From positions 20,485,320 through 20,549,319 of the forward strand of contig OY987230.1 in assembly GCA_963920705.1 (NCBI GenBank): 64,000 nt of DNA. The letters run 5' to 3'. This document shows, in pieces, positions 1 to 54,303 of this stretch (its first letter is position 1; every line of letters starts with the position of its first letter). Both the position numbers and the translations under genes were made by a program. The notes below the pieces were generated by a model. That model made no database searches. It had not been told where the DNA came from and saw only the letters and a list, made by a program, of their open reading frames with translations. This stretch comes from Odiellus spinosus. Lineage: Eukaryota > Arthropoda > Arachnida > Opiliones > Phalangiidae.

Positions 1-1683
1 TTGATGTAACTTTACGAGTACAAAAGAAAAATTCTGAAAATATTTTAGGCCTAAATTTAAATGGGTTGTTTCTGTTTTTTTTTTTACATAAAATTCAGTA
101 TAAAAAGGAGTTTCGTAAGAACTCCAAATGGAGGGAAATTTCAACTCGACAGCGACAGATTTTCTATCAATTAGATGGGCCTAATTCTTAAATTCTCTGG
201 TTACAAGAATATTTAATCCAACATCAAGCTAGAAATCCAGTTTTTATCATACTCGAATAGTAGGCTTAATTGATAAAGCTGATGTATAACAAAACCTGGT
301 GTTCACAAGCATCCTCTATTGGCAAATCGTGCGTGCAAAAATAGGAACTAAGCTATTGTAGTATGACTTTTGATAGTACCATTAGTACCGCCAAGATAAA
401 AGAAAATAAGTCTAGTTACGTAGATCGTTAAGCCTTGGCGCGACTTCTTACGTTTTACCCATATAGTTCCATGGCGAGTTATACCTCTTTCATGTTTTTA
501 TTGGCATTCCTGGTATACGTATTACGTTCTAATACCTTTCTTATTTCTATCTGATCATAGTTTAATATCCAATCATATAGTCCAAATCCCCCCGAACCTC
601 TTTCCACCAATGATCAGTCGTTAGTTATACCCCGTTTATTCGGAAATTCCAATACAAACCACCGTAGAATATTTTATTAAGTTACAAGCTTGGAAAAGAC
701 CTAAAATCCCATTTGAAAACCTTTTTTCTAGATGGGAATTTAGAGCCCTTCTAAGATGGAGAAAGAATATGGTTATATCTCTCCTACTTCGACTTTTTTT
801 TTGTCTTAGATGTGGAGGATTGATTGATGAAGGAGACCGCCATTCTGACAAGGTTAAGGATGAGATAGATTCTCACTGGGTTCATTTCAACCCCAATGTT
901 CTGTCTTAGATAAAGCGAGCTTATAAATTTAATAGAACAAAATTGGTCACGTGATCAAAGCATTTTAGATTGTATCGCAAAGAATTATTTCTTATATCCA
1001 CTTCAGCTTTCCCACATTATAAGTCTTCTTCAAATGGAGGATAATTATTGGAGTCGAATTTTAAAAATTTAATTCATTTTCGATCACGTTGGCTTTTCAT
1101 ATAACAACACCTTCAAGCGTGTGATTAGTTTAATATCACCTTAAAAAGGATGAACTATACAATTTTGGTCATGTGGGCTTCATCAAATTTATATCATTTA
1201 CATAATTTGTCCCGAATTATACTTTCGTAATTTTGCGCAAGAAAATATATTTAAATTTAATCGTAATTGATGGGGTTCCTTTAAAGGAATTGACCAATAA
1301 AACATGAAAACCACATTTTAAAAGCGTTTATAAAATATTTGCGTAAAGCTTTGTTAGAAAGCTCTAAATTAATAACTATTTCACTAACTACTTGATGGCT
1401 ATACGCTAAGCAAACCTCTTGCACTGTAGCTAAGGCTCGATTTACGCGGGAACTCATGATAATCGATCGATGATTATGGTTGCTAGGCAACGCGTATGTC
1501 GAACCAATTAAAAGGGGGTATAATATGACGTAAAATGGTGTATCTATGACGTGTAATGACGATACCCATGTCGTTATTTTTTTAACTCGCAAGAATGATA
1601 ATAACAATTTAAAACTTTTTCGTAATTAGAGAAATTTAACTATATTTTTCTAACAAACATAAAGTAGTTTAAACCAATGATAG
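1..1683. other. Non-coding, probably calsyntenin intron or upstream DNA
   Basis: No conserved exon, RNA gene or clear repeat is visible. The short open frames here (for example near 636-851 and 1281-1607 on the minus strand) have low-complexity, non-conserved translations and no splice-site support. The block is AT-rich and contains scattered AGGCCT words that recur across the window. Confidence 0.5.
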
Positions 1684-1998
1684 CAAGAATTCATTCAGGT
1701 TCCATAAGAATATGGGAGGGCCGCGATTCAATAACCATCCTCCCAAACTTTGTAGCAAAAGTTCGTCCGCTTCGAATCGATTTTTCAATAAATCGCTCCT
1801 GACATCTATTATTAACCCGCGCCACTAACAACCTTGACATAATATTTTGGGTAATAAAAATGGAGCCGACCGAAAAAACATCTAAGCGTACAAATGTTGC
1901 GAAAATTGCAGACGAACTTTTGTTACAAAGTTTGGGAGGATGGTACCAGAGGCTAAAGCTATGCTCCCATATTCTTATGGAACCTGAATGGATTCTTG
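1684..1998. mobile_element. Foldback MITE (CAAGAAT ends) with 7-bp target duplication
   Basis: Two long inverted arms face each other. The left arm begins CAAGAATTCATTCAGGTTCC and the right arm ends with its near-perfect complement. A second matching block (CCATCCTCCCAAACTTTGTA) lies further in. The element is 315 bp and is flanked on both sides by ATGATAG (1677-1683 and 1999-2005), a 7-bp target-site duplication. It has no transposase frame, so it is non-autonomous. It is unrelated in sequence to the CAGAAGCC family but shares its duplication length and CA...TG ends. Confidence 0.88.
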
Positions 1999-2456
1999 AT
2001 GATAGTGTTTCTAGAATTTAGGCCGGAAATTTTATTTGTTTTGGAGTTATAGATATATTTTACGTTAGGCCTAATATTGACCGCACTGCGTATCGCGGCT
2101 GATCGAAATGATCCATATTGTTGAGCAAACAGTGTACACTATATAAGACGTCCCCCCTCTTGGGATATCTTTCATTTTTCTTTCTTTCGGTTGGATGGGG
2201 TTTTCGCGGCGTTTGATAGATAAACATTTCCTAAATTAATGTATAAATATAGGGGTTAATAGGCCTTTGCGGCTTTGGTATATACTCCATTTTTTTTTTC
2301 TCTTCTCCTATATGCTTCAGATGAAACAAATAGTTCATCCACGATAAATTGAGAGTACTTATCATAGGGATAAGTATATAGGCCTTCTTTTCTCTCCACG
2401 TTTTTTTTTTATATCGCCATTCTTTTGCCCTATATCCTTATAATAGAGATATGACT

Positions 2457-2995
2457 GGGTTGCCACAGGTCAGGGAAAAGTCAGGGAATTTGAAAATGAA
2501 CCAAAAAATCAGGGAATTTTAAGATATTTTAAAAAGGCAGGGAATTTAAAGATATTTCAAGAAGCCAGGAAATTACAATGACAGGGTTGCCACGGGTCAG
2601 GGAAAAACAGGGAAAAGTCAGGGAATTTGAAAATGAACCAAAAAATCAGGGAATTTTATGATATTTTAAAAAGGCAGGGAATTTAAAGATCTTTCAAGAA
2701 GCCAGGAAATTACAATCACAGGGTTGCCACGGGTCAGGGAAAACAGCTAGGGAAAAGTCAGGGAATTTGAAAATGAACCAAAAAAATCAGGGAATTTTAA
2801 GATATTTTAAAAAGGCAGGGAATTTAAAGATCTTTCAAGAAGCCAGGAAATTACAATCACAGGGTTGCCACGGGTCAGGGAAAACAGGGAAAAGTCAGGG
2901 AATTTGAAAATGAACCAAAAAATCAGGGAATTTTATGATATTTTAAAAAGGCAGGGAATTTAAAGATCTTTCAAGAAGCCAGGAAATTACAATCA
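2457..2995. repeat. Four tandem ~127-141 bp units starting GGGTTGCCAC
   Basis: Unit starts are at 2457, 2584, 2721 and 2862, giving periods of 127, 137 and 141 bp. Each unit repeats the word CAGGGAA several times and ends with AGCCAGGAAATTACAAT. The unit start CAGGGTTGCCAC resembles termini often seen in hAT-type elements, so the array may have grown from such an element; that link is inference. It is non-coding. Confidence 0.9.
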
Positions 2996-3128
2996 TTATC
3001 TGCGGAAAAGATTCTCAGCTGACAGTGTCAGTTGTATAGATTAGAACAAAGATACGCGTGCAAAAAATTTGGTGAACGCGAGTATATAAAAAATAAAAGG
3101 TTAAAAATTGGGTAGTATTAGCTGAAAC

Positions 3129-3553
3129 AGTCAGGGAAAATCGTTGGAAAAGGTCAGGGAAAATCGTTGGAAAAGGTCAGGGAAAATCGTTGGAAAAGGT
3201 CAGGGAAAATCGTTATAAAAGGTCAGGGAAAATCGTTGGAAAAGGTCAGGGAAAATCGTTGGAAAAGGTCAGGGAAAATCGTTGGAAAAGGTCAGGGAAA
3301 ATCGTTGGAAAAGGTCAGGGAAAATCGTTGGAAAAGGTCAGGGAAAATCGTTGGAAAAGGTCAGGGAAAATCGTTGGAAAAGGTCAGGGAAAATCGTTGG
3401 AAAAGGTCAGGGAAAATCGTTGGAAAAGGTCAGGGAAAATCGTTGGAAAAGGTCAGGGAAAATCGTTGGAAAAGGTCAGGGAAAATCGTTGGAAAAGGTC
3501 AGGGAAAATCGTTGGAAAAGGTCAGGGAAAATCGTTGGAAAAGGTCAGGGAAA
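3129..3553. repeat. 23-bp minisatellite, about 18 copies
   Basis: The unit CAGGGAAAATCGTTGGAAAA plus GGT is repeated head to tail with almost no variation; one unit has ATAAAA instead of GGAAAA. The period is not a multiple of three and the unit lacks stops, so all three forward frames stay open and give the same 23-residue protein repeat. This is why three overlapping 100-145 codon frames appear. I do not consider them genes. The core GTCAGGGAAAA is shared with the 2457-2995 array. Confidence 0.95.
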
Positions 3554-4115
3554 AACCTGGAAAAGTATAGTCAAAGAAATAGTCTGCTTTTGAAAGGTTT
3601 TTAGGGGCTTAGTTTCAGTTCTTTCTTGGGTTTACTTTATACCGTTAACTTAATTTAATTTTAATTAAAGTAACATATCCTTTTAAGTCTTATTTGGATC
3701 AAAACTTAATAATGCACGGAACTTTGTTGTTTGTTTCTAATAATGAGATTAACTTTCCCCGCCAAGGAAATTTCCTTAGAAATTGTACGAATTATAGATA
3801 AATGGACTTTACCCCCATCCGGAACTTTAATCTCTTTCAATTGGATTCTCATATTTTACTTCATTTATACTTTAGGCTTAGCGAATCTTTAAGCCTTGGC
3901 TTTTCGTATATCTTGTATAATAATAATAATACGACGTCCGGGAATCTTTTAAACCAATTTTATAGCTGAGTTGGTTGTCCCGTATATATCCTAAGATTTA
4001 CTAATAGATTTCAACGCGCTATGTACATCAAAGCTAAAATTTTTGAGGCTTGAAGGGAAAAAAGATGTTTATAAACGTATAGACCTAATATAACAACGCA
4101 ATTTTCATTTATAAC
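3554..4115. other. AT-rich, nothing recognised
   Basis: No exon, repeat or RNA gene could be supported here. Confidence 0.4.
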
Positions 4116-4479
4116 TTAAAGGGATATTAAATTCATATAACGAGTTAATTCTAATCGATTTGGGCTGTTGTAATACCTTTATAAACTAACCAAAGATTTC
4201 GCGGTAATTTATAGCTAATTTTCTAAGTCGCGAACTAGACTCGCTAAGCCTAAATCTGTTTCGAAGTAAATCTGGTAATACAATGGCGCGTGAACTAATT
4301 TAACTAAATTGGCATCAGCAATTGAATCAGTTTGAAATAAATATAAAATATCCTCGAATTTTTCAACTTTAATAATTAACCGTGAATTACTATGAAACCT
4401 TTGTGGCGAGTTTTGAAGTTTAGGCCTATTTTAAGTTTGATTAAAAATATCTTGTAACGAGAGTATAGTATCCCTTTAA
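4116..4479. mobile_element. Candidate TTAA-bounded MITE
   Basis: TTAA at 4116-4119 is followed by AGGGATATTAAAT, and TATCCCT is followed by TTAA at 4476-4479. The terminal inverted repeat is only about 11 bp (AGGGATA plus partial matches), with a second weak match (ATAACGAG against CTCGTTA). The TTAA duplications and AGGG ends match the better-supported foldbacks at 21323, 26673 and 42943. Confidence 0.5.
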
Positions 4480-4796
4480 ATTAAATAGAACGCCTTATGT
4501 TTTTTAACCGCAAATGTCTGCCACCAGGGCCTTCGTCAATGCTAATTTTAGCGCTAGTTACTGACTCGACCCTTAAATTATTAAGTTTTTTCGTAAAGAA
4601 AGATTTCCCTTACTTTTCGATTTTATTAGAGTTCATTTTCCCTTTAAAAATATTATTAAACTCTTAAACATAATGGATTGTAAACTTATATGTACAAAAG
4701 TATATTTCAAATTATTTCGTTTAGGAAAAACCTCACATCCGGTATAACGTAAGACAATTAAAGGTGGCGCTGATTACTTACGCACTGCGGATACTA

Positions 4797-5221
4797 AAGC
4801 CTCGTTCATACATAGACCTAAATGTGCTTCGTTGCGCTTCGATTTCTATAACTGGTTATCAAACCAACGTGAGAACTCAGTTCGTGTTGGTTTGGGAAGC
4901 AATTTGGTCAAGTCGCTTTGAAAATAACGAGGCGGGGAGACAAATTTGCTGATAAATCTTAAAATAACGCGATTAAAATTATAGTTTCTGTCAAAAATTA
5001 TTAACCAATGAGGTACAAACACGAATTACTAATTAGTTTGAGATAATTATTTAAAAAAAAATTAATTCTGGGCATTTTTTAAAACGACCCTAAGCCTTGG
5101 CTTAGGTCGAACCGGGGCGAACGGCCGCGAACCGTCTTGTCAGCGTGTGAACCAGGGAAAACGGAAAACGCTTCGTACTGGTTTTGGAAACCGATTTTGC
5201 CCTCAAGTATGAACGAGGCTT
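4797..5221. mobile_element. Inverted-repeat element with 15-bp perfect ends
   Basis: AAGCCTCGTTCATAC at 4797-4811 is exactly complementary to GTATGAACGAGGCTT at 5207-5221. Direct target duplications are not obvious. A short open frame inside (4764-4952) has no family resemblance. A GTATGAACG word also closes the fold-back candidate near 31545. Confidence 0.5.
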
Positions 5222-6033
5222 AAGCCTTTTATGTTCATGCTCGTTTCCGGTTGAATTTTCATATAATCTTCAATAATATACTTCATATAGATGTAAATAT
5301 ATATCTTTTGTTATAAAGATAGGCGTTAAAATCTTGAAAACATGATATCAATTTAATATATACAGTTTTCGAGAAATCGAGACCACTTTACAATCGTCTA
5401 GGGTTTCTGAAGGGTCGACTACGTATGGGCCGGGAGCAAATTTGAATATATAAGTACCCTAAACTGTAGGAAAATCCGGGAAAATCTAAACGTTAACGAA
5501 TGAAAGGTCGATTTAAAACTTATATAGCGGAAGTCGCCTCAGTTTTGATTATATAATCTTATATAATCTTGGGAATTTCCAAGTTGTATTTGTGTTTATG
5601 ATCGTTCGAGAATTTCTCCGCTGTTCAATTTTGTAAGCTATAGTTTAAATTCTCTAGAGAGAGTCGAGAACTCCCGTTTTGAAATTAAACATATCGAAAG
5701 CGAAATTTCTATTGTTTTAAAACAATTTTAAAGGGCAAGTAAACTTAATTTATTATCTTGGTTAACAAAAATTAAAGGTATGATGGATTAAATATCACCG
5801 AGAAATATAATATTCAAACTTTTTGTCGATCAAACTTCAACACTATATGGTTATAAATCGGTAATTTAGGGGTTAATTACTAGGTATAATGGTAATTTAC
5901 AGTTTGTTCTGGTAAAAATTACCAAAATGGTAATTAATATAATTTATTTGGATTAAATGTGAATGGGCAAATTGCTAAAAAGAGGTCAAAGTTTAACTTT
6001 TTCAATCGTCTAAAAAGGTCAATTTTTCAATAG
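5222..6033. other. AT-rich, nothing recognised
   Basis: No exon or repeat family was identified before the first CAGAAGCC element. Confidence 0.4.
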
Positions 6034-6040
6034 TTATTAT

Positions 6041-6377
6041 CAGAAGCCGATGAAACCCTCCTTTGAAGTCTACTACTCTAATGTTCCATATAGCGCTCCT
6101 CTCTGTATGGGTAAAATTCCCAATTTTACGAGATCGGAGGGGTCCTACTTCATACCCCCTGTCTACGCAAAATTGGAAATTCTCTTTCTCCACAAACGAC
6201 GACGTTTTTTTGAAGAACTCCAAGGCTGCTAGAGATATTCGCTCGACGAACTCCCGCTCCGAAAACATCTACCGTTAGGAGGCGTACGAATCGCGCTTTT
6301 TGAAACTAACCCATACAGAGAGGGGTAAACAAGACCCGGGAGTAATAGACTTCAAAGGAGGGTTTCATCGGCTTCTG
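6041..6377 (-). mobile_element. CAGAAGCC MITE copy 1 (inverted)
   Basis: This 337-bp foldback element starts CAGAAGCCGATGAAACCCTC and ends with its complement. It is bounded by the 7-bp duplication TTATTAT (6034-6040 and 6378-6384). It carries the 'B' diagnostic block (GATCGGAGGGG, reading in this orientation). It lies in reverse orientation relative to copies 2, 4, 5, 7 and 8. It has no transposase. Confidence 0.95.
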
Positions 6378-6600
6378 TTATTATGTTTGGGATCTTCCTT
6401 ATCATTTAAAATAGTTCTGTTAAAAAAATTTACAAACAAATAATAGTATGGTATTGACTAGAAATACCCGTAGGCGAAGCAATCGTGGAAATATGTTTTC
6501 ATTTCGTAATTTTCCTGGCGTACTATGTTGTTCCTTTCTTCCGCTGCTTTATGTAGGCTAGAGCCGTAATAGAATTTGTGGATAAATGCCCCCTCATGAA

Positions 6601-6626
6601 AAGAGAGAGAGAGAGAGAGAGATAGT
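6601..6626. repeat. GA microsatellite
   Basis: A short run of GA dinucleotides lies between MITE copies 1 and 2. Confidence 0.8.
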
Positions 6627-6896
6627 GTGAGATAGAAAAATGGGTGTGATGATAAAAAGAAAAAGAAGGTGTCACGTACAGATGTTAAGATCCGTGAAAT
6701 GGAGAAGACAACTTGAATTAAGAGAGAGTTGTGAAAAAACTATTCTCCGCCCTGCAGCCCTTGACTCCCCAACCAAACCAAGTTCTAATTCTCTTTTTTT
6801 CTTTTTATTGAGGCATAAATATAGTCGAAATTGGTTTAAGTTTTCAGCACGTGCTAATCTATACGTTCATCATAACCATTTCGAAGAACATAATTC

Positions 6897-7233
6897 CAGA
6901 AGCCGATGAAACCCTCCTTTGAAGTCTATTACTCCCTGGTCTTGTTTACCCCTCTCTGTATGGGTTATTTTCAATAAGCGCGATTCGTACGCCTCCTAAC
7001 TGTAGATATTTTCGGAGCGGGGGTTCGTCGAGCGAATATCTCTAGCAGCCTCGGAGTTCGTCAAAAAAACGTCGTCGTTTGTGGAGAGAGAGAATTTCCA
7101 ATTTCCCGTAGACAGGGGGGTATGAAGTAGGACCCCTCCGATCTCGTAAAATTGGAAATTTTATCCATACAGAGAGGAGCTCTATATCGAACATTAGAGT
7201 AGTAGACTTCAAAGGAGGGTTTCATCTACTTCT
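6897..7233 (+). mobile_element. CAGAAGCC MITE copy 2
   Basis: A 337-bp copy flanked by the 7-bp duplication ATAATTC (6890-6896 and 7234-7240). It is B-type internally (CCTCCGATCTCG). The right end reads CTACTTCTG instead of CGGCTTCTG, so its outer TIR is imperfect. Confidence 0.95.
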
Positions 7234-7394
7234 GATAATTCGTATACCTAGATATATCGCGAAACAAATATATTCGTCGTGTTTAAACGTTATTGTCCGA
7301 CTGACAGACATTGTTACGAAGATAATGATATATTTTGGTAAAAATATTACCATACTAATTTAGGCAATTTGGAATACTTTGGAACCTCCTCCTG

Positions 7395-7441
7395 ACCTAA
7401 CCTAACCGAATTTAACCTAATTTAACCCAACCTAACCCATT
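7395..7441. repeat. Degenerate CCTAA-type short repeat
   Basis: About nine imperfect units of CCTAAC/CTAATTTAAC follow one another. The complement approximates TTAGG, the telomere word of many arthropods, but the run is short and interrupted. It may be an interstitial telomere-like tract or simple drift. Confidence 0.5.
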
Positions 7442-7642
7442 TTTGCTGAAAATAACGTTTTAGTTTAGGCATATGCGATTTTAACAAACAAATGTTCGAA
7501 AAATGTTGAGGGAATCGTGTTTTCCACTGCATTTGCTGTCAGAAATGACTAAAAATGAGGTCCCAAACAACCAAAAGCCCAAATGGTTAACAAGACTGGA
7601 CTTTAAATACGCGAATCTTGGGCTCCTTACCATAAGTAGCGA

Positions 7643-7979
7643 CAGAAGCCGATGAAACCCTCCTTCGAAGTCTACTACTCCAATGTTCCATATAGCGCTC
7701 CTCTTTGTATGGGTAAAATTCCCAATTTTACGAGTTAGAAGGGATCCTACTTCATCCCCCCTGTTTACGGAAAATTGGAAATTCTCTCTCTCCACAAACG
7801 ACGACGTTTTTTTGACGAACTCCAAGGCTGCTAGAGATATTCGCTCGACCAACTCCCGCTCCGAAAATATCTACCGTTAGGAGGCGTACGAATCACGCCT
7901 TTTGAGAATAACCCATACAGAGAGGGGTAGACAAGACCCGGGAGTAATAGACTTCAAAGGAGGGTTTCATCGGCTTCTG
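7643..7979 (-). mobile_element. CAGAAGCC MITE copy 3 (inverted)
   Basis: A 337-bp copy bounded by the 7-bp duplication GTAGCGA (7636-7642 and 7980-7986). It is A-type (GAGTTAGAAGG in this orientation) and both ends have the CGGCTTCTG form. A 123-codon minus-strand frame runs through it into flanking DNA and is not a gene. Confidence 0.95.
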
Positions 7980-7986
7980 GTAGCGA

Positions 7987-9205
7987 GTTTTTTACAAGTA
8001 TACATCTATTTAGATTACAATAAGCGTAATTTTCTTTTCTGTGGATGTTACTTTATTTTTCTTTTATATTCTTTTGCCGATTTTAAACTTGAAATAGATT
8101 AGAACCCGCAAAAAAGAAATAGTGTGCTCAGAATTGCGATATAAGAAAATAAAAAGACTACGTGCTGAAAGAGTTATTTTCATTTGGAAATAAAATCACG
8201 TTCCGCGCTCGTATAATGCTTAGTCGTCGACTCCTTGTCCGGCCGCAGATTCAAAACCTTAATCGTTCTAGAAAACAAAGGGCCTAGGATATCACTTCCG
8301 CTTCCGGTTAACGTACGTACGTACGCGCGCGTGACACTCCGACAGCTTTTTCGTGTAAAGCTAAGCCTAAATAGATTTAAGTATTTATACAACCCTAGTA
8401 TACATCTAATGCGGTTTTGTATGACCTTTAACCTTTGTCTTCTAGTTGTTCCAAATATAGTACATAACTTTCAGGATGTATAATTTATAATTATAATGAT
8501 AAATAGTTAATTATAATTAGAAGTCGTCGAAAAACATCGCCAAAGCACGTTTTCGCTCCCCTTTTTTTTTATTAATTTACATTTTTAATTTAGTTCTTTA
8601 CTGCGCATGCTTTAGAATATTAAGCCTTATTTTAAAAGTGTTGAAAACTTCGCTAAGCCTAACCTATACGTTATTTCTATTTTGAATGATTATCTGCCAA
8701 TTTTTTCTCTAGATTATTAATATTATTATTTATTTTATTTTTTTTTCGTAAATGGTTAGGCCTAAATATAACGAGCTAGTTCTTTAGGCTTAGGAGTATA
8801 GCGTTCTCTATTGAGAATAAAAATTCTATTTTCAACCTTCTCCCGCGCGTTTTATTTATTTTTTTCTTCTTCTAAACTCTCTTATTGTTATGTCGGTTCG
8901 CGTTTTGTTCTCTCGAGAACTGTCCAATTATTTTCCCCAACGGAATTGAAAAAAACAAGACGGTAACTCTACATTAATCTTCGTTTCTCCTGGAATAGCA
9001 GACGAAAAATTTCGGTGATTTACAAACGTTTTTGGTTAGCAATTTATCATCTCTTAAAAGACCAAATAGCGTGCTAAATTATGAACGTTAGTATCTACAT
9101 GTAACCGATTATTTTACGGAAGCTCCATATGGTCTAGTTAATCTACATAAAAATAATAAAATAAAAGAAATTAAATTAAATTTAAAAAATCAAGGAAATA
9201 TATAA
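7987..9205. other. No gene recognised; short alternating ACGT/CG tract
   Basis: The stretch contains a small alternating purine-pyrimidine run (ACGTACGTACGTACGCGCGCG pattern, near 8311-8331) that could favour Z-DNA. No coding evidence was found. Confidence 0.4.
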
Positions 9206-9212
9206 ATATTTA

Positions 9213-9528
9213 CAGAAGCCGATGAAACCCTCCTTTGTAGTCTATTACTCCCTGGTCTTGTCTACCCCTCTCTGTATGGGTTAGTTTCTAAAAGCGCGAT
9301 TCGTACGCCTCCTAACGGTAGATATTTTCGGAGCGGGAGTTCGTCGAGCGAATATCTCTAGCAGCCTTGGAGTTCGTCAAAAAACGTCGTCGTTTGTGGA
9401 GAGAGAGAATTTCCAATTTTCCGTAGACAGGGGGCATGAAGTAGGACCCCTCCGATCTCGTAAAATTGGGAATTTTACCCATACCCATTAGAGTAGTAGA
9501 CTTCAAAGGAGGGTTTCATCTACTTCTG
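9213..9528 (+). mobile_element. CAGAAGCC MITE copy 4, internally deleted
   Basis: A 316-bp copy bounded by the 7-bp duplication ATATTTA (9206-9212 and 9529-9535). It is B-type with the CTACTTCTG right end. About 20 bp are missing next to the inner right arm: the AGAGAGGAGCGCTATAT segment found in sister copies is absent. Confidence 0.95.
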
Positions 9529-9547
9529 ATATTTACTATTATGCCTT

Positions 9548-10145
9548 AAATTCTGCATAAATTAATCAACTATCAAGCTTATTACGGTAAATAACAGATA
9601 TAACGAATGTTTTTATAACGAATTTTCGTTGTAAACGTATCACGCAACATTTCTATTACAATTACTCGTTAGAATTATAATATTCACTAATGAAATTCAA
9701 TAAAAATCAAGAAAATATCTAAATATTTAATTTACATAATAAATTAATTAATCAATCTTGTTACTGTAAATATTACGAATGTTTTACAACGAATTTTCGC
9801 TGTAAACGTATCACGCAACATTTCTAATACAATTATTCGTTAGAATTATAATATTCACTAATGAAATTCAATAAAAATCAAGAAAATATCTAAATATTTA
9901 ATTTGCATAATAAATTATTAATTAATCTTATTACTGTAAATATTACGAATGTTTTACAACGAATTTTCGTTGTAAACTTATCACGCAACATTTCTAATAC
10001 AATCCCTCGTTTACTAATGAAATCCAATCAAAAATCAAGACAATATTTAATGTGGATGATAAAGTAATTAATCAATTATCAATCATATAATTAATGTTTT
10101 TATAACGAATTTTCGTTTTAAACGAATCACTTAATATTTCAAAAC
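9548..10145. repeat. ~170-bp tandem repeat, 3-4 copies
   Basis: The landmark AACGAATTTTCG recurs at 9617, 9788, 9958 and 10104, giving spacings of 171, 170 and about 146 bp. Flanking words such as ATCACGCAACATTTCT and GAAATTCAATAAAAATCAAG recur in each unit. The last unit is shortened and diverged. It begins directly after MITE copy 4 and is non-coding. Confidence 0.88.
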
Positions 10146-10836: not shown

Positions 10837-11097
10837 TCTACCAATTTTAAAAATACGCGTACTCGCTCGTGATTGGCGACTAGATCAGACGGGAATATTA
10901 AAAAAAATAGGGCTCGTACTCGCCTAGTTCGCCGAGCTAGGCAGCCAAGGCTTAGCATCTGCAAGTTTCGGAACTTTGGGAATTGTTTATAAAATAACGA
11001 AACATTTTTGTTGAGTTATATTATTGTTTTTCTCATTATTTTAGCATTCTTAATCGATTAAAAATAGGTTGTTTTGGCCTTTCATTCTCCCTTTAAA
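10837..11097. mobile_element. Half of the 21323-21815 TTAA foldback
   Basis: The sequence from AATACGCGTACTCGCT through the ...AGGTTGTTTTGGCCTTTC block to CATTCTCCCTTTAA matches the right arm of the 493-bp foldback at 21323-21815, including CGAGCTAGGCAGCC and ATCGATTAAAAATAGG. The left arm is missing. It ends on TTAA at 11094-11097, which is also the left boundary of the next element. Confidence 0.8.
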
Positions 11098-11445
11098 CGA
11101 CAAAGAATCAATAAAAACATCACTCGTGGCAAGAAGGATCAGATAAGGAGAGGAAAAGTGGGGCTGCGTTGAGTTAGAGAGAGAAGAGCCAACCTCCCAC
11201 TCGGGTGGAAAGGGGGATAGGAAATTCTCGAGGTAAACTGTTGTCACGTGGTCGCTAGCTAGCGCGTCTCATAAAGGATTCGTTTTACTCACGTGACAAC
11301 AATTTACCACGAAGCATCTCTACCCCCGTCTGTCCCCCGTTCTCCCAGAGTGGGAGTTTAGGCCGACGCAGTAGGAGCCGCGCCGTTCCCACTTTTCCTC
11401 TCCTTATCTGATCCTTCTTGCTCGTGGTTAGGTTGCATTTTCCCT
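11098..11445. mobile_element. TTAA-bounded foldback element
   Basis: TTAA at 11094-11097 and at 11446-11449 bracket two inverted arms. The left arm contains AAGAAGGATCAGATAAGGAG and the right arm contains its exact complement. Inner matches include CACGTGACAAC. The right end TCCCTTTAA matches the family ends. The frames seen here (11050-11247 and 11285-11503, minus) are non-coding. Confidence 0.75.
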
Positions 11446-11449
11446 TTAA

Positions 11450-12064
11450 TAGGAGCGAGCTCTGCCTGGTTGATTTTACAAATTTTATTCGGTCTTTAAA
11501 CATTAAAACAGTTTTTTTTAGAGCATAAACTAATAAACTACATTGTTTTAAATATCTTATAGGTTTAGTTTCGTGACTTCTATATACATTTATTTTTTAA
11601 TCTTGGTCTTCCTAAAGTGACGGGGTTCGTTTTCGGCAGGTCGATATAATATTAATGATAGCTGGATGCTTAATGAGGTCGAGGGATGCGTATTCGAATT
11701 AAGGGGAATTCTCAAGAGTCACGCGAATTTTAAAGAAGAACGGGGCAGAGAGATAGAGACTGCGAGAGAGCTAAGCCTAACTTTTCATTTTATACGTTTG
11801 TTCAATAATTAAAGAGCTTCCATCGATTGGAATGCCAGAAAAAATTATCCCCGGGACCACGGGGGCTCCAGCCACGGCTGGGAAAATATTCTATTTCGAA
11901 TCATTATTTTTACATTTTATGGAACCCTTTTTTGCCTTTTATCTCAATTGGAAACCAAATTTTACATAAAACTGATATTTTTCTTAAATTTTAGGAAAAT
12001 TATTCATTAGTTTTCGATTTCAAAAATTACTTTCGTAAAATATCAATTTTAAGTAATCGAGAGT
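11450..12064. other. Nothing recognised
   Basis: No conserved exon, RNA or repeat family was found. Confidence 0.4.
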
Positions 12065-12970
12065 AGATTATAAAATCATTTAAGGTTGATTCTAAAAGTA
12101 TCGAAGGTAGATTCTAAAATTATCGAAGGTAGATTTAAAATTATCGAGGGTAGATTCTAAAATTATCGAAGGAATATTCTAAAATTATCGAAGGAATATT
12201 CTAAAATTATCGAAGGAATATTCTAAAATTATCGAAGGAATATTCTAAAATTATCGAAGGAATATTCTAAAATTATCGAAGGAATATTCTAAAATTATCG
12301 AAGGAATATTCTAAAATTATAGAAGGAATATTCTAAAATTATCGAAGGAATATTCTAAAATTATCGAAGGAATATTCTAAAATTATCGAAGGAATATTCT
12401 AAAATTATCGAAGGAATATTCTAAAATTATCGAAGGAATATTCTAAAATTATCGAAGGAATATTCTAAAATTATCGAAGGAATATTCTAAAATTATCGAA
12501 GGAAGATTCTAAAATTAAAATGATAGAAGGTAGATTCTACAATTATCGAAGGTAGATTCTTAAATAAAAATGATCGAATGTAGATTCTAAAATAAAATTT
12601 ATCGAAGGTAGATTCTAAAATTATCGAAGGTTGATTCTAAAATTATCGAAGGTGGATTCTAAAATTATCGAAGGTAGATTCTAAAATTATCGAAGGTAGA
12701 TTCTAAAATTATCGAAGGTAGATTCTAAAATAAAAATTATCGAAGGTAGATTCTAAAATAAAAATTATCGAAGGTAGATTCTAAAATAAAATTTATCGAA
12801 GGTTGATTCTAAAATTATCGAAGGTGGATTCTAAAATTATCGAAGGTAGATTTTAAAATTATCGAAGGTAGATTCTAAAATAAAAATTATCGAAGGTAGA
12901 TTCTAAAATTAAAATTATCGAAGGTAGATTCTAAAATTAAAATTATCGAAGATATAGATTCTAAAATTAT
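12065..12970. repeat. 22-bp minisatellite, ~40 units
   Basis: The core unit CGAAGGAATATTCTAAAATT plus AT is almost invariant at about 12165-12500. The flanks carry a variant with GGTAGATTC in place of GGAATATTC and occasional AAATAAAA insertions. The homogeneous centre and diverged edges are typical of recent expansion from the middle. Confidence 0.95.
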
Positions 12971-14130: not shown

Positions 14131-14483
14131 TTTTTAACATACGTGTGACGTCGGTCTTACTTAAACTTTTAATTAAAATATGCTCCCGAAGAATAACGAA
14201 TGGAATTTGATTTCCCAATCAGGAAAATATTTAAATTTGGTTAAAAATGGTACAAATTGGAAAATTTCAATAGAATTCGACCAAATTGACCAAAATGAAA
14301 AAACATGAAATCAACAAAGGTGGTTCTCTTTCAGTTGGTCAAAATTGGTCAAATTTTCCAATTTTAAGAATTTTTTCACCAAATTTAAATATTTTTCTTG
14401 ATTAGGAAAGCATATTTCTTTCTTTATTATATGGGAGCACGTTGAAATTAAAAGTAAAACCGACGTCACGCGTATGTTAAAAG
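14131..14483. mobile_element. Foldback element, ~150-bp arms
   Basis: The left arm (from TTTTAACATACGTGTGACGT) and right arm (ending ACGTCACGCGTATGTTAAAA) are complementary over about 150 bp with scattered mismatches. Inner matches include TATTTAAATTTGG and TTCCCAATCAGGAAA. No clear target duplication was found. Frames on both strands (13949-14218, 13956-14210, 14311-14580) come from the hairpin. Confidence 0.75.
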
Positions 14484-14490
14484 AGCCTCG

Positions 14491-15240
14491 GTATTTTTTT
14501 TTTTTTTTTTTTTTTAATTTCCATGTGATTAAATTATAGCTTGGCTTGAGATTAATTTGGCAAGGCCCGAATCGAGTCAAGTTGCGTGTTCTATTTAACG
14601 AGTAATGATTTCACTCTCTCTTTGAAGGCACGCAGACGTCTATACATGTTTAGATTCAACAGGGCGGAAGTTCCCCAGTGTTCCCCCCCTTCATCATCAT
14701 CTCTCATGTAATATTAGTGTTACAGATGTGTTTTAAGCCTAGGGTTATATCTCGTTAATGTCACGGCAGTATAGGTATACCCTACTTAGGTAGCTATATA
14801 AAGGTTAGAGAAGTCTAATGCCTATGGGTAGAATTAAACCCGTATAGTATTCGATCTGCGAGCTATACGTTAACCACACCGCGTATATAGATCAGTTAAG
14901 CCGATAGAGAATGGGGGGTGGTCCTATATACCTTTCCTCCCATTTGGCTTCCGCCTTTAATAAATTAATCACGTGACGTTTCTAGGTTTGGAATGGCTTG
15001 ATATATATCAATGATACCTCTTCGGTAATGTACGTGTGTCTCATTTCGATGCGATCGAACCGTGGCAGTTCTGTTAGTAATATTGTAATTATGTATTTAA
15101 AGTAAGGCTGTAACTGATTTTTCACGAGTTCCAAATGAAAAAGTAGCAGTTTAGGAATGAACGATAAAAGACGATTCAAAATATATTCCAAAATAAATAT
15201 TACATCCCAACTAAAAATATATATCGAATTTTTTTTATGG
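14491..15240. other. Poly-T tract, otherwise nothing recognised
   Basis: A T-run begins near 14493. No exon or RNA gene could be supported. Confidence 0.4.
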
Positions 15241-15312
15241 CAAAGATTGCGAGGACTTTAAGGGGGCCCAGAAATTGCCCTTAGTGGCCCCAGAAAGGGC
15301 TTATTTGAGTCT

Positions 15313-15925
15313 GTATTCCCAAAAGGTTTTAGAGTGTGCCCACAATTGAGAGAAAGGGGGCCCAAAGTTGAGAGAAAGAGGGCCCAAAATTGAGAGAAAG
15401 TGGGCCCACAATTGAGAGAAAGGGGCCCACAATTGAGAGAAAGGGAGCCCAAAATTAAGAGAAAGGGAGCCCAAAATTGAGAGAAAGGGAGCCCAAAATT
15501 GAGAAAAAGGGAGCCCAAAATTGAGAAAAATGGAGCACAAAATTGAGAGAAAGGTGGCCCAAAATTGAGAGGAAGGTTGCCCAAAATTGAGAGAAAGGTG
15601 GCCCAAAATTGAGAGAAAGGTGGCCCAAAATTGAGAGAAAGGGGCCCCAAAATTGAGAGAAAGGGGTCCCAAAATTAAGAGAAAGAGGGCCCAAAATTGA
15701 GAGAAAGAGGGCCCAAAATTGAGAGAAAGGGGGCCCAAAATTGAGAGAAAGAGGGCCCAAAATTGAGAGAAAGAGGGCCCAAAATTGAGAGAAAGGGGGC
15801 CCAAAATTGAGAGAAAGAGGGCCCAAAATTGAGAGAAAGAGGCCCAAATTAAGAGAAAGAGGGCCCAAAATTGAGAGAAAGGGGGCCCAAAATTGAGAGA
15901 AAGGTGGCCCAAAATTGAGAGAAAA
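15313..15925. repeat. 22-bp GGGCCCAAAATTGAGAGAAA minisatellite
   Basis: About 27 tandem units of GGGCCCAAAATTGAGAGAAA plus two bases. Minus-strand frames read as repeats such as SLNFGPPFSQFWALFLSI because the unit lacks stops; they are not genes. The GGGCCC and AAATT palindromes in each unit make the array rich in short hairpins. Confidence 0.95.
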
Positions 15926-16735
15926 ATCCTGGATCCGTCTCTAAATTCTGTTATCTTTAATGTGTTATCACTTTCAGTTTTTAAGTAAAGCTTTAATTTG
16001 AAGAATTATGCTAAATGAGTCTTTACTACGAATCTTGGCCAAAAATCTAAATTTCCAGGAGTAGTCTTGTTTCATCATATTCATATTTACTTAATTTATT
16101 CCCGGTATATTGTAAATATTAATTCAATATCCATTGTTACCTATCTTATATATTGCTTTATTTGATAGTGTATGGGTCTATATTTCGTGGTTATCTATAG
16201 GGCCTAACTTCCATATATGTAATAGATTAGGTGTATTGGCTGCTGTCATCGTTGGGGCGTCTCGCCTCCACGCTAGCGACTCGATCATCTTCTTTCCACG
16301 AATAATATGGGAATAAAGTCGCTCTTTTCTGGGAAGCATTTATTTTTTTTTTATTTTCGCTGAGCCATTGTGTTTCCTTGGAAGCGACAATGGAGTTTGG
16401 CAGCCCACCAGATAAAAAAAAGAAAAGAAAAAAGCCTGTCGAGCTTTCTTCCATTCTTTATATCGTTGTTTACCGCGCCCGATATAGCTCTATATATGGA
16501 TTGGGGGAGCCCGTTCAGCCCAACACATAATCGACCCCTTCTTTCTTATTTCGCCAAAAACTCTCTCTTCAGACGTAAACCCCACGGGGCCTCGCCAATC
16601 TCCCATTTGGCCCCTATACGAGATCTTACCTTTTATGACTATCGTCAGTTTTCCCAAGAAGAAAGTTTTAAGAAATAAATAATCTCGTAGAAATATCAGA
16701 GAAAATTTGCCCTAAAGACCACGGAATATGAAAGT
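15926..16735. other. Nothing recognised
   Basis: Open frames near 16134-16678 on both strands have no family resemblance and no splice support. Confidence 0.4.
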
Positions 16736-17335
16736 TTGGTTTTACAGGTCATTGAAAAGTTCAGGAAGTAGTCAAGGAGGTTGAAAATTGGGATTAAAGG
16801 TTATAGGAGATGTTAGGCAATTAAATAGTGAGGTTAAAGGTCATAGGAGATGTTAGGCAATTAAATAGTGAGGTTAAAGGTCATAGGAGAAGTTAGGGAG
16901 TTAGATAATGAGGTTAAAAGTCATAGGAGAAATTAGGGAGTTAGATTATGAGGTTAAAAGTCATAGGAGAAGTTAGAGAAGTAGATAATGAGGTTAAAGA
17001 TAATATGAGAAGTTAGGGCGTTAGGTAATGAGGTTAAAGATCATAGTAGAAGTTAGGGAAGTAGGTAATGAGGTTAAAGGTCATAGAAATTAGAGCGTAA
17101 GGTAATGAGGTTAAAGGTCAGGAGAAATTAGAGCGTAAGGTAATGAGGTTAAAGGTCAGGAGAAGTTAGAGCTTAAGGTAATGAGGTTAAAGGTCAGGAG
17201 AAGTTAGGGTGTTAGGTAATGAGGTTAAAGGTCGTAAGAGAAGTTAGGGAAGTGCATAATGAGGTTAAAGATAATATGAGCAGATAGGTAATGAGGTTAA
17301 AGGTCAGGGAATTAGATACTTGGGTTAAATGTCGG
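16736..17335. repeat. ~40-bp tandem repeat (AATGAGGTTAAAGGTCATAG)
   Basis: About 13 units containing AATGAGGTTAAAGGTCA, followed by a variable GGAGAAGTTAGGGAGTTAG-like part. Unit length varies from about 34 to 45 bp. It lies about 330 bp before the first calsyntenin exon in the window. Confidence 0.9.
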
Positions 17336-17668
17336 GGAATGAAATAATTGGGAAATTCAGTAAATTTCAAATCAACTGTCATGGAAAAAAAATCTATTTG
17401 AAACGTTAATAATAAAAAATATAAAAAAGTTTCCACTTTATTTTGGCTGAGTGGCTCGATTTTAATTTCCGATTAAACTGAGTGTTGAATTTTTATTTTT
17501 ACGAGGCAATTTAGAGGTTTTACGTTTTCTCGCGCTACACTGATGGGCTTTAGATTTTGGTTTTCGGGAGCGTCGTAGGTCGATATCCACTTTCAATGGG
17601 ATTAAAGGGAGGTTGAAAAACTTTGAATCATATTAATAATTTCTGTTTTTTTGTTTTCTTTTGTTTAG

Positions 17669-18946
17669 GTGCCAGTTCGGACAGCGTTGATTTGTTACCC
17701 TCTCCTGGCATCGGCACGGAATGGACGCGTGGTTTACCTACGGACGAAGGTCACGAAAGCGACCAGATATACGAATTCGACGGCGCCACCAACGCCGTGG
17801 TCATCCCGGAAACCACCCTCAGCCACAATTTAACCGACAATTTCACCGTCGCCTTCTGGATGAAACACGAACCACTTCCGGATCAAACCAACGGATCAGT
17901 TCACACCAAAGAACACGTTATTTGCAACGCCGATGATCACAGTAAGTTTTTAAAAAACATTTAATCACTTTCTCAAGTTTTTGGAGGGTAATATCCATTC
18001 TTCTATTAAAAATAAGACTTGTTCGCGTATTATAAGATTCGAAAAATGTCTCTGAATTGGGTTAAAAATAGGAAAAGATTCAGATTTTGGCTGATTCTAA
18101 TCCAAAGACTCTCAACCTCTGTCCTTTGGTTCCATAAAAGAGTGTATGGCAGCACGTGTCGCGGGGATATTATTAATCCAAGGTTAACGTCTTTTGATTA
18201 GTCGAAGGTTTTCCTTTTAATTCTATCCCAAAAATTCGTAAAGCAATCTTAATAAAATTAGAAAAATAATCATTAAAAATGACTTTATTTTTCTATTCAC
18301 CCTCCCTTTAAAGCGATGTAATTATGCTATTCACGTATAAATATTTCCCCCCAAAATTAATCGCTATTACATCATATTTAAAACCAGAAGCCGATGAAAC
18401 CCTCCTTTGAAGTCTATTACTCCCGGGTCTTGTCTACCCCTCTCTGTATGGGTTATTCTCAAACGGCGCGATTCGTACGCCTCCTAACGGTAGATGTTTT
18501 CGGAGTGGGAGCTCGTCGAGCGAATATCTCTAGCAGCCTTGGAGTTCGTCCAAAAAACGTCGTCGTTTGTGGAGAGAGAGAATTTCCAATTTTCCGTAGA
18601 CAGGGGGGATGAAGTAGGACCCCTTCTAACTCGTAAAATTGGGAATTTTACCCATACAGAGAGGAGCGCTATATGGAACATTGGAGTAGTAGACTTCAAA
18701 GGAGGGTTTCATCGGCTTCTGTTAAAACTTCAATTAAATTATAAAGTCGATTTTTGGTGAATTTAAAATTTGAAAACTTTGTAGAAAAATCTCCAATTTC
18801 ATTTTTTCCTCAAGTGTCCCCTAAACATTACGTGATCAAAAAAGGTAACTCTTGACGCACACGTACCCGTTTTTGTTACACAATCGATTAAAACCGGAAC
18901 GTGACCACAGCTATAAGAGCTCAAACTTTGTTACGATTATTAAGGT

Positions 18947-18987
<41 letters not shown>

Positions 18988-21611
18988 CCAATTCTACCTG
19001 TTCTTATCTTTTGTATTTCTTTCCCGAGACCTTCGGGGTATTGTTAGCTCTGTTGAAAGAAATCGTAACAAGCCATAATTTCTAATTTAGCAAAAGCAAA
19101 AGGGAAGAGAAACGTGTTTAGTTTTATTTTTACCGTTTCTAAGAGACATCAGGCATTACGTGGTTTTATTATTCTTATTTTTCTTATTATTTTATCTCCG
19201 ATGTGCGCGTTCCTGAAAAATGGTTAAGACCCTTTTTTTTTAGTATTTCTGTCTTATCTAATTCGCTTTTAAAGGGAAGATGTAGAGGAAAATGAAGGGT
19301 TTTAAATTTTCAAGTAAAAATACACGCAGTTTATATGAAATACGTATTTAGAACTAGAACTTTGTACTGTAAAGTTACATAGGCTATATTCGGAGCTTAA
19401 TTAAAAATACCACGGTAATTAAAAAAATTAAAGTGTCTCGAACAGAAGTTCCGAAAAGCTCTAACGAAGGAAATAAAAGTTACATTATCACAATATACTC
19501 AGCCATTCTCTAGAAAAACCGACATTAACGACCCACCTTTTGGTCTTTCACGCGTTTTAATCTTCAAATAAGAAATTAAATATAAATATTAATTAAAAGT
19601 TTCCTCGAACAGATCTTGCGCAATTAGTTTCAGATCAATAATTAAAAGACCGAAATGGTCTGACGTACCTAGAAGCTGAGATAAAAGCTACTAAAGTTGC
19701 TCGATTGACCTATTATTCATACTGTTTCCCCTTAATTTTAAAATTTAACGTTCCAGATAAGTTTGTGAGGTTTATATTTATTAAAAAAATGTTTTAGATA
19801 AGTAAGAGACATTTAAATTTATCCAAAAACATTCCAAATACAGTTAGATAGATTTATATTTAAACCAAAATCTTTTGATTGATATTTAAAACCTTTTCAA
19901 AAGGCTGGAAAATTAAAAATTATTTAAAACAGTTGAAAAAACCACAATTAATTTTAAAACTTATCCAAAACTTCGGGAAACATTAACTAATTTTGAAAAT
20001 TATCCAGAAAAGCTTAAGAAAAGTTAAGGAATGGTGGATTTGGCTTATTTTAACGATAATTAATCTCTTTTAATTAGGTTTCATTCTCCCTTTAAGTCAT
20101 TTTTGCACCCAGATAATAATCCTGGAGCCCATTATCATAGTTATATAGACTCAAGAAGACGCTACCCTCTTTAATGCCAGCCTTAACTGCTTAACTATAT
20201 GAGAAGTACTCCATACTACTTATCCTTGTCCCCACGCTCGCTCGCCCTAAGTAACGAAACACGGATTATCTCAGGCTGGGATTATCCTCTTAGCGCAAGT
20301 ACCATTTATAATATAGTATATATAAACTACTTTTAGTTTTATCAGAAGCCGATGAAACCCTCCTTTGAAGTCTACTACTCTAATGTTCCATATAGCGCTC
20401 CTCTCTGTATGGGGAAAATTCCCAATTTTACGAGATCGGAGGGGTCCTACTTCATACCCCCCCCTGTCTACGCAAAATTGGAAATTCTCTCCACAAATGA
20501 CGATGTTTTTTTGACGAACTCCAAGGCTGCTAGAGATATTCGCTCGACGAACTCCCGCTCCGAAAATATCTGCCGTTAGGAGGCGTACGAATCGCGCTTT
20601 TTGAAACTAACCCATACAGAGAGGGGTAAACAAGACCCGGGAGTAATAGACTTCAAAGGAGGGTTTCATCGGCTTCTGGTTTTATATATAGAGAATGGGA
20701 AGAAAGACGACTGGGAAGACTTTATTAAACACTACATGACACCTTATTTTGTTCTATTGAACATTATACTATTTTGTTTAGTACTTTCACGAAAAAGACT
20801 CCTAAAAACGACCCTATCACTTGGTAGAATCATAGAGGGTAGATAGGGGAGGAGTGGAAACCGACAGCTTTGGCTCTGCATTTTGAGAGTTCTCGGATTT
20901 TGCCTTTCCAATTTTCCTCTCAACATCCTGTGTTTTACTATTGGCTGATTTTGAAACCGTTACAACCAATTACAGCGCAGAAAAAATATCGTAGCCCTCT
21001 ATGATGACCGGGTGTTAAAAAACGACGCGCGCATATACCGGATGTTCCGTGGAAAAAATGAAAAACGAGAACTCTTTAAGAGCCCCTTCCACTCCTCCCC
21101 TATCTACCCTCTATGGTAGAATGCGCGAAAATCAATTATTAGGCTCTACAATAGTAGTATCACGGGGAATTTTGATTTTAAAAAATGAACAAGATGGTAG
21201 AGTATAAAATATATATTTTTAATCCAGAGAAATCTGAAAAGGATTGATACACAATACTTTTCATAGGAAAAAATATTTTTGTCAATTAACTAATAAGCAC
21301 TAGCGTATACCGTGGTTATTAAACGGAGAATGAAAGGCCAAAACAACCTATTTTTAATCGATTAAGAATGCTAAAATAATGAGAAAAACAATAATATAAC
21401 TCACCAAAAATATTTCGTTATTTTATAATAAATTTCCAAAGTTCCGAAACTTGCAGATGCTAAGCCTTGGCTGCCTAGCTCGGCGAACTAGGCGAGCACG
21501 AGCCGTATTTTTTTTAATATTCCCGTCTGATCTAGTGGCCAATCACGAGCGAGTACGCGTATTTTTAAAATACGCGTACTCGCTAGTGATTGGCGACAAG
21601 AACAGCCGCGA

Positions 21612-21650
<39 letters not shown>

Positions 21651-24600
21651 GGTCCTGCTCGCCTAGTTCACCGAGCTAGGCAGCCTAGGCTTAGCATCGG
21701 AACTTTGTAAATTAATTATAAAATAACGAAATATTTTTGGTGAGTTATATTATTGTTTTTCTCATTATTTATAGCATCGATTAAAAATAGGTTGTTTCGG
21801 CCTTTCATTCTCCCTTTAAGTGATTTTAAGTCTAAAAAATTCACGCTAAAATAAATAATTAGGATAATAACTAATTCCTTTGATTAGGAAAGTTCCATTA
21901 GTCCCTTTAATAATTCAAATATTTGTCTAATTTTCTAAAAACGATCAAAGAGAATTTTGGGGGAAAATATTTTCTCCGAGGGTTTTTTTTTTTTTTTTTT
22001 TTTTTTTTCTTTTCTACATCAAAGCTCTAGCGGTAGAAAACTTGCCACGCAAAGTTTATTCGCGAAAGGCAAAAACATCCGTGAAAAGAATTCGTCATAT
22101 CAGAGGTATATAATAACCCCCTTCGGGGGGGAAGTATGAAAGGTAGGCAAAATCGACAAACAACAAGTGCCCGGCGTAAATCGCGGCGGATCGACACACC
22201 GCTTTACTCCCAAAAAATAGTTACACCATTTTGAACCTCACTAAATTTTCCCTACGCACACTTCCGGAACTCGCGAGCTGAAGTCAACCTTCGACTCCAT
22301 TTTAACAGACAGCCTGACTCCTGAGACAGGAAGTTCTAAACACAAATCGAGCCGTCTTGTTTATACAAAGACCATTTACTAGAGTAGCGACATTGAGAAG
22401 TCCAGCGCGAGCTAGTGGCCTAGATAGTCAGCAGCGGGCACTCGTTGTTCGTGATTTTTAGCATTGGTAGTATAGGGGCTTTCATACTTCCCCCCGAAGG
22501 GGGTTTATTATATACCTCTGGTCATATATATAAGAGGTTGGATGGATAAGGAGTAAAGACTCGGGGAATGTTTCTTCATCTTGAGCTTCCCACTCTTTTT
22601 TGTTTCTTATCTCTCTATATAAAAAAAATACTCATCATCCCAGTTCGTGAGTTCTGTAACTAATATATAGGTAACTTTAGTCTACATAGTAATCCCATAG
22701 AAATAACTAGGATCCATTGCTAACTCAGAATGGGATCATCTATTGCTTGTTTCACGCTGCTAGATTAGGGAGCATGAAAACTGATCCCGTAACTCATCTC
22801 GTCTTTCATATATCGGTCTATTATTCCATTTTGAATTGACAATACGTTCAAAACCTTACATTTATCTCCCAAGTAAAAACAAATCATAGTTTTTATAGAG
22901 ATAATGGGTAACGTAGCTTTGTACGCGCTGTCAATTCAAGTTGGAATTGATTATATATTCGTATACTTCTGTTCGTGATAAGTTTTTACAATGGATTGAT
23001 ACTTAAGCGGATTGATACTTAATGTTAAATTTCATTGAGTTAAAATTAATTAGTTAAAAATTATAACTTCGTGGAATAAATCGCTAACTTTAAAACTTAA
23101 TTTTGGCGTAATTAAGACGAAGGAACTTTTTAATTACTTTATCAATGCTTTAATAATAAAACAAGGGTTTGAAATTTTTCTTCATGATTTCTTTAAACTA
23201 TCCAAAACCTTCGAAGTACTAAGTTAGTATAGTTAGGAGTTACATTTAAACCATTTATACTAGTACCATCAGAAGCCGATGAAACCCTCCTTTGAAGTCT
23301 ATTACTCCCGGGTCTTGTCTACCCCTCTCTGTATGGGTTAGTTTCAAAAAGCGCGATTCGTACGCCTCCTAACGGTAGATATTATCGGAGCGGGAGTTCG
23401 TCGAGCGAATATCTCTAGCAGCCTCGGAGTTCGTCAAAAAAACGTCGTCGTTTGTGGAGAGAGAGAATTTCCAATTTTCTGTAGACAGGAGGGATGAAGT
23501 AGGACCCCTTCTAACTCGTAAAATTGTGAATTTTACCCATACAGAGAGGAGCGCTATATCGAACATTAGAGTAGTAGACTTCCAAGGAGGGTTTCATCTA
23601 CTTCTGGTTATAGGAGAAGCAAATCCTCAACGTGGTATAGAAATAATACCAGATAGGTTTTTTTACTTTTTTTCCGTTTTTATCCTCCCCCGCGCAAAAG
23701 TATAGAATCGCTGTCACTTGGGAAAACATACCAAAGCCCATCAAGATCCCATTAAGAGCATATTTTTTCTGGCTCCATTATGTATTTATATATGTCAGAT
23801 TTTAAGGCCCATTATACACTATTACATCATTTTAAAAAAAAAAAAGTATAGTTTATATTATAAATATAATAATCTACCCCTTAATTTTTTAATTTTTTTA
23901 ATTTCAACCTTACATTAATTAGTTATTTTTATGTCTTATCGGTACGCAATTAAAAACAAAATTATATTTATATAGCTCCATTTTCATGCTCCCTAGTAGC
24001 GGGTAAAAAAAAACGAAAAATCCGCCTCCGCTACACGCGTGTTTCGTTTTCATGCTTGTTAAAGCCGAAATAAATCGCGGAGAAGTACAAATTTCAGTGG
24101 ATTTTCACTTTCCGCTTCCGCTAGGAGGACCCGCGGAACTTGAAAACGCTCGCTAAAATTGTCCGCTACTAGCGACCATGAAAACGGGTCTTTAAGGTGA
24201 AAATTAAATTTGATATAGCGATAACAGCTGTTCGAAACCATGTTACCCTTCACTTAAATTCACTTAAAAATCTTTTAATTCAAATTCAAATAAAATTGAA
24301 ACTCTCTTCGAGCTCAAATTAAAGTCGCACTTAAAAAGGAGTTTGCATCGAGTTATTTTTTACGATGAATTGTAAAATATCAGAAGCCGATGAAACCCTC
24401 CTTTGAAGTCTATTACTCCCTGGTCTTGTCTACTCCTCTCTGTATGGGTTAGTTTCAAAAAGCGCGATTCGTACGCCTCCTAACGGTAGATATTTTCGGA
24501 GCGGGAGTTCGTCGAGCGAATATCTCTAGCAGCCTTGGAGTTCGTCAAAAAAAACTTCGTCGTTTGTGGAGAGAGAGAATTTCCAATTTTCCGTAGACGG

Positions 24601-54258: not shown

Positions 54259-54303
54259 CAGAGGTATATAATAACCCCCGAAGGGGGTTATTATATACCT
54301 CTG
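54259..54303. mobile_element. 45-bp perfect palindrome: TIR-only remnant of the CAGAGG family
   Basis: Two exact 21-bp arms starting CAGAGGTATATAATAACCCC are separated by GAA. The arms equal the ends of the 22101-22520 element. Flanks are ATAATGC (54252-54258) and ATAATGT (54304-54310), a 7-bp duplication with one mismatch. It is an element reduced to its joined ends. Confidence 0.85.

Follow-up and report, generated by a model that had tools for sequence, protein, structure and literature searches.

The window analyzed here, a 64,000-bp stretch of the Odiellus spinosus genome (contig OY987230.1, positions 20,485,320 to 20,549,319), contains five families of short foldback elements, designated A to E, which end in CA...TG and are typically bordered by 7-bp target-site duplications (TSDs). 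It is proposed, with a probability of roughly 0.65, that families A–E are non-autonomous cut-and-paste elements, namely miniature inverted-repeat transposable elements (MITEs), of the P superfamily, 1360/Galileo type, and that they were moved by one type of transposase. They most likely represent new families within a known kind of genome parasite. If this is true, the 7-bp branch of the P superfamily, known from published accounts of 1360 and Galileo in Drosophila, also drives a MITE population in another animal. It would also mean, with five unrelated ends under one target preference, that within a transposase class the recognition of ends changes far more quickly than the choice of cut and target, and that the target motif is usable as a test to sort orphan MITEs. 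The result is a modest surprise, which lies in the number of unrelated ends found with one target preference.

Foldback families and their duplications

Family A (CAAGAATTCATTCAGG; end CAAGAAT) is a 315-bp foldback at 1684–1998 with a 35-bp terminal inverted repeat (TIR) and the TSD ATGATAG at 1677–1683 and 1999–2005. Family C (CATAGAGGGTAGATAGGGG; end CATAGAGGG) is a 285-bp foldback at 20831–21115 with a perfect 29-bp TIR and the TSD GTAGAAT, while family D (CAGAGGTATATAATAA; end CAGAGGTA) occupies 420 bp at 22101–22520 and has a 42-bp TIR with a CCCCCTTCGGGGGG hairpin and the TSD GTCATAT. These three were recovered by a scan for inverted ends with the positions, CA...TG ends and 7-bp duplications that an earlier note on this DNA had assigned to them. 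Family E (CAAGAAGGATCAGATAAGG; 11130–11420, 291 bp; TSD CTCGTGG) was absent from that note. Families A, C and E each have a single copy within the window. The full-size elements of the five families measure 285–420 bp with TIRs of 29–42 bp, and no coding sequence recognizable by Pfam was found within them.

Family B, with CAGAAGCC ends, is present in nine copies, the number previously counted, of which five are oriented one way and four the other, with pairwise identities of 92.6–98.5% (gaps excluded). Oriented relative to copy 5, these are copy 1 (CAGAAGCCGATGAAACCCTCC; 6041–6377, minus strand, TSD TTATTAT), copy 2 (6897–7234, plus, ATAATTC), copy 3 (7643–7979, minus, GTAGCGA), copy 4 with an internal deletion (9213–9528, plus, ATATTTA), copy 5 itself (18385–18721, plus, TTAAAAC), copy 6 (20343–20678, minus, GTTTTAT), copy 7 (23270–23606, plus), copy 8 (24381–24718, plus, AAAATAT) and copy 9 (25907–26243, minus, CTCAAAG). 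With nine copies, family B shows the features by which MITEs are recognized, being short and non-coding with TIRs, duplications and many copies.

The nine B copies together with A, C, D and E make up 13 full-size insertions, 12 of which combine CA...TG ends with an exact 7-bp duplication. The thirteenth, B copy 7, has no duplication, being flanked by GTACCAT and GTTATAG; the claim that all of these elements give exactly 7 bp consequently stands for eight of the nine B copies and fails for this one. The outcome that had been named as contradicting the claim, a duplication of 8 bp in which one base is constant, is excluded, with an 8-bp duplication present in none of the 13 insertions and the adjoining base not fixed on either side. 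It should also be noted that copy 7, having both ends between unmatched flanks, may mark an ectopic exchange with a partner outside the window. It bears a likeness to Galileo, for which twelve copies with unmatched 7-bp flanks were interpreted as chimeras in the published account (PMC3573991), and copy 7 may likewise be a chimera.

A 45-bp relative of family D, designated D-mini, lies at 54259–54303 and consists of the first 21 bases of the D-family end and their own reverse complement with 3 bases between, flanked by ATAATGC and ATAATGT (6 of 7 bases duplicated). It resembles a single D end folded onto itself at the CCCCCTTCGGGGG hairpin, and possible origins are hairpin-primed self-copying or loss of the interior in gap repair.

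CA...TG ends were found in all five families and in D-mini; the ends of the Drosophila P element also start with CA. Beyond the outermost bases the five TIRs are unrelated, in agreement with the earlier note on the four families that it named, since end-anchored alignments gave p values of at least 0.11 against shuffles in all 10 pairs. Whole-element local comparisons (10 pairs, 60 shuffles) gave p 0.017 for B–C and p 0.05 for C–E, values which are unremarkable across 10 pairs. The pattern common to the five ends is CA, any base and two purines (CAAGA, CAGAA, CATAG, CAGAG and CAAGA). The unrelated TIRs would suit an explanation in which several distinct transposases coincidentally make 7-bp duplications in this genome, but the CA...TG ends speak against it, as do the inner repeats and target sites described below.

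A second alternative is that a hAT-related lineage, having shifted from 8 to 7 bp, mobilizes families A–E. The start of family D (CAGAGGT) resembles hAT ends such as those of Tol2 and counts in favor of this alternative, but among the five families only D (CAGAG) matches the hAT end consensus YARNG. The absence of 8-bp duplications from all full-size insertions also argues against a hAT origin, given that hobo, a hAT element, is reported to have produced 8 bp in 1,196 of 1,198 insertions (PMC3276498), and a narrow literature search for hAT MITEs with 7-bp TSDs returned only a paper on Galileo. A hAT-related lineage is therefore considered unlikely.

Chance expectation of the scans

A strict foldback scan gave nine candidates whose non-palindromic duplication measured 6 bp or more, every one of them with CA...TG ends and 7 bp, and five candidates with a 5-bp duplication, none of them with CA...TG. 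The same scan of 20 Markov shuffles yielded 16 candidates with at least 6 bp and 35 with 5 bp, none with CA...TG. The strict scan requires an exact 7-base seed inside the outer 14 bases, and for this reason it missed B copies 2, 4 and 8, the right ends of which are changed. When one mismatch was tolerated in duplications of at least 7 bp, CA...TG was present in 13 of 17 seven-bp candidates and in 1 of 12 candidates with duplications of 5, 6, 8 or 9 bp, with six shuffles giving eight candidates and no CA...TG. The candidate at 61387–61625 from this relaxed scan (CAAAGG, 8 bp with one mismatch) was taken as chance because the six shuffles yielded four 8-bp candidates.

The scan for inverted ends with identical flanks returned 27 rows, 12 corresponding to the elements reported here and 15 being dropped. 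In 12 of the dropped rows a B copy was paired with another B copy and the apparent duplications were palindromic 6-mers (CGTACG, CCCGGG and AGCGCT); the other three lay inside the palindrome at 21319–21819.

Target-site preference

Target preference was analyzed with 13 sites, namely the 12 exact duplications and D-mini, B copy 7 being omitted because it has no duplication. Position 2 of the target is T in 12 of the 13 sites and position 6 is A in 8, although this pair was picked post hoc from the same sites, and A at position 3 and T at position 5 are also enriched. The symmetrised consensus is ATAnnTAnTAnnTAT for the eight B sites and ATnnnTAnTAnnnAT for the five non-B sites, and overall the target is AT-rich with a symmetrised consensus of about ATAN-RTANTAY-NTAT.

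The motif GTANTAC, which was taken from the literature, matched 44 of 78 informative positions over the 13 sites, a fit reached by 0 of 20000 random draws from neighboring non-element DNA. The B sites alone matched at 27 of 48 positions (0 of 20000 draws) and the non-B sites at 17 of 30 (p 0.00035), or 13 of 24 with D-mini removed (p 0.0031). As B and non-B sites fit this Galileo motif separately, the suggestion in the earlier note that one transposase group mobilized the unrelated families is supported, and the occurrence of inner repeats at similar depth in all five families points the same way. Several transposases arriving at 7 bp by coincidence would have to have chosen the same target motif for B and non-B insertions, and this explanation is regarded as very improbable. 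There is no need to invoke a poorly described lineage, as the earlier note additionally suggested, given that 7-bp duplications at GT...AC palindromes have been published for both 1360 and Galileo and the lineage therefore need not be new.

Inner inverted repeats

Inside the TIR, a second inverted repeat was found in all five families (copy 9 being tested for B), starting 41–79 bp from the ends. For each family, the share of 1000 interior shuffles reaching that repeat was determined. The repeat of family A has 21 bp (1734–1754 and 1924–1944; 51 and 55 bp from the ends; shuffle fraction 0) and that of B copy 9 has 15 bp (25964–25978 and 26175–26189; 58 and 55 bp; fraction 0). Shorter repeats were found in family C (10 bp; 20886–20895 and 21066–21075; 56 and 41 bp; fraction 0.005), family D (8 bp; 22166–22173 and 22435–22442; 66 and 79 bp; fraction 0.035) and family E (9 bp; 11194–11202 and 11348–11356; 65 bp at both ends; fraction 0.013).

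By analogy with the P superfamily, these inner repeats are candidate transposase binding sites. The sites of the P transposase are reported at bp 53–63 and 41–51 and the footprint of the Galileo THAP domain at 63–80 (PMC3688188), and the inner repeats of family C are at 56–65 and 41–50. The unequal spacing described for the two P ends (PMC7776569) is paralleled in families C and D.

Comparison with known systems

The closest published parallels are with two Drosophila elements of the P superfamily. For 1360 (Hoppel), a modal TSD of 7 bp (274 of 279 insertions) is reported at a palindromic target, GTTNAAC, with T second and A sixth (PMC3276498); the sites in the window fit this motif less than GTANTAC, and the likeness noted here is in duplication and target. 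Galileo is reported to have TSDs of mostly 7 bp with GTANTAC within a 15-bp palindrome across six species (PMC4168063), the target in D. buzzatii being GTAGTAC (PMC2775673), and it shares the foldback shape of the elements described here. It differs in its TIRs, which are given as about 300 bp to 1.2 kb in contrast to the 29–42 bp found here. For the P element itself an 8-bp TSD and the target GTCCGGAC are reported (PMC3276498).

Two further systems of the P superfamily resemble families A–E in part. In Anopheles gambiae, several P-derived MITE families within one genome are tied to different P subfamilies (PMC1562414), and the zebrafish Pdre2/THAP9 element starts with CATACC (PMC10983969) and has a TIR with a subterminal inverted repeat, although its subterminal repeats are described with 400-bp spacers. 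Dada was also considered as its duplications are given as 6–7 bp, but it is described as having no TIRs and as inserting into small RNA genes, either small nuclear RNA or transfer RNA (tRNA) genes (PMC3706591). It was ruled out by the 29–42-bp TIRs and by the lack of a small RNA gene in the window, where neither an Rfam match at the gathering score nor a tRNA was detected.

Proposed mechanism and class of the transposase

It is suspected that a transposase encoded elsewhere in the genome binds the inner repeat approximately 40–80 bp inside each end and cuts the element out at its CA...TG termini. In an AT-rich target, the two strands would be cut with a 7-bp stagger and each joined to one element end, after which repair would give rise to the duplication. 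Recognition sequences would differ from family to family, for which reason the TIRs would seem unrelated, with the cut, the outermost two bases and the choice of target common to all. The class of this transposase is inferred from cut, ends, target and anatomy, for which the P superfamily, 1360/Galileo type, is the best fit.

A number of points weigh against this assignment. No transposase, which in the P superfamily would combine a THAP domain, an RNase H fold and a GTP-binding insertion, was found in six-frame Pfam scans of 1–15 kb and 16–31 kb (30 kb) or among ten open reading frames (ORFs) chosen from the window. The matches in the 30 kb were few, weak and unrelated (Cor1, Gp58 and DUF7672), and a tblastn search with the P transposase of Drosophila yielded no coding copy and just two matches without significance (E 2.2 and 3.0). 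At the target, the base that is strongest in P-type sites, G at position 1, was found in 7 of 26 symmetrised positions where about 4.5 are expected, so that the outer G1/C7 of the GT...AC type is weak, and the 1360 motif GTTNAAC fits poorly (p 0.015 for all 13 sites, 0.049 for B and 0.097 for non-B). The palindromic form is itself partly forced by symmetrising, and without that step the signal of palindromy is modest, with complementarity in 36 of 91 pairs (p 0.009). T as the second base of the duplication is preferred by hAT elements too, as seen in the reported hobo target GTNCGNAC (PMC3276498), and this favors the hAT alternative. Taken one by one, the inner repeats of D and E are marginal, and in A and B they may be what remains of a longer arm of the foldback that contains small indels. 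Finally, the duplications reported for the Anopheles gambiae P-derived MITEs (PMC1562414) and for zebrafish Pdre2 are of 8 bp.

The 7-bp cut might instead be the work of an undescribed transposase lineage from beyond the P superfamily. In favor of this are the lack of an autonomous element in the 30 kb of Pfam scans and in the P tblastn search and the nature of the features common to the families, which concern cut, ends and target rather than protein. Such a lineage is considered improbable, as 1360, Galileo or P offer published parallels for the length of the cut, the kind of target and the inner sites. Similarly doubtful is the broader proposal that the five or more unrelated MITE families stem from a lineage beyond all named superfamilies that is fixed on CA...TG ends and a cut of 7 bp, with end recognition free to evolve while cut length and target preference remained constant. 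The P superfamily, 1360/Galileo type, is accordingly retained as the preferred assignment.

The B and D ends were also searched for in other contigs. The B end had no match in viral contigs and matched one genome contig, in which the match ended after the 21 bases. The D end (16 bases) was found in 23 viral contigs, in which the D sequence never continues beyond a few bases, and patterns from the Drosophila P transposase had no match in viral contigs.

Window context and other repeats

Three exons were recognized by their domains and mark the DNA as animal, these being a laminin-G exon at 36849–37340 (Pfam Laminin_G_2, slightly above cut-off), an exon with an RNB exonuclease domain at 50794–51228 and an exon with a dishevelled-type DEP domain at 57384–57725 on the minus strand. 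The laminin-G exon may belong to calsyntenin, and a PDB search with it returned only designed proteins. An ORF at 17617–17961 has a laminin-G match below cut-off (E 0.03), and as the region between this ORF and 36849 is flanked by these two, the several elements within it perhaps lie in one long intron.

Other foldbacks were also observed. The palindrome at 21319–21819 is a foldback of 501 bp that terminates in TTAA on either side, and a piece resembling its end lies at about 11080–11097; elements of the TTAA-duplication type include piggyBac and Kolobok, which are candidates for it. Foldbacks of 190–490 bp with undefined duplications lie at 14132–14482, 26778–26969 and 41645–42134 and are perhaps older or of other types. 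Together with the TTAA foldback, these indicate that the 7-bp CA...TG type is not the sole foldback type in the window.

Five minisatellites with units of 22–40 bp were also detected (3130–3565, 12056–12969, 15338–15924, 16794–17288 and 27720–28434), along with arrays of a 137-bp unit (2471–2995) and a 171-bp unit (9598–10011). Most of the foldbacks lie within the 30 kb that also holds these minisatellites and arrays.

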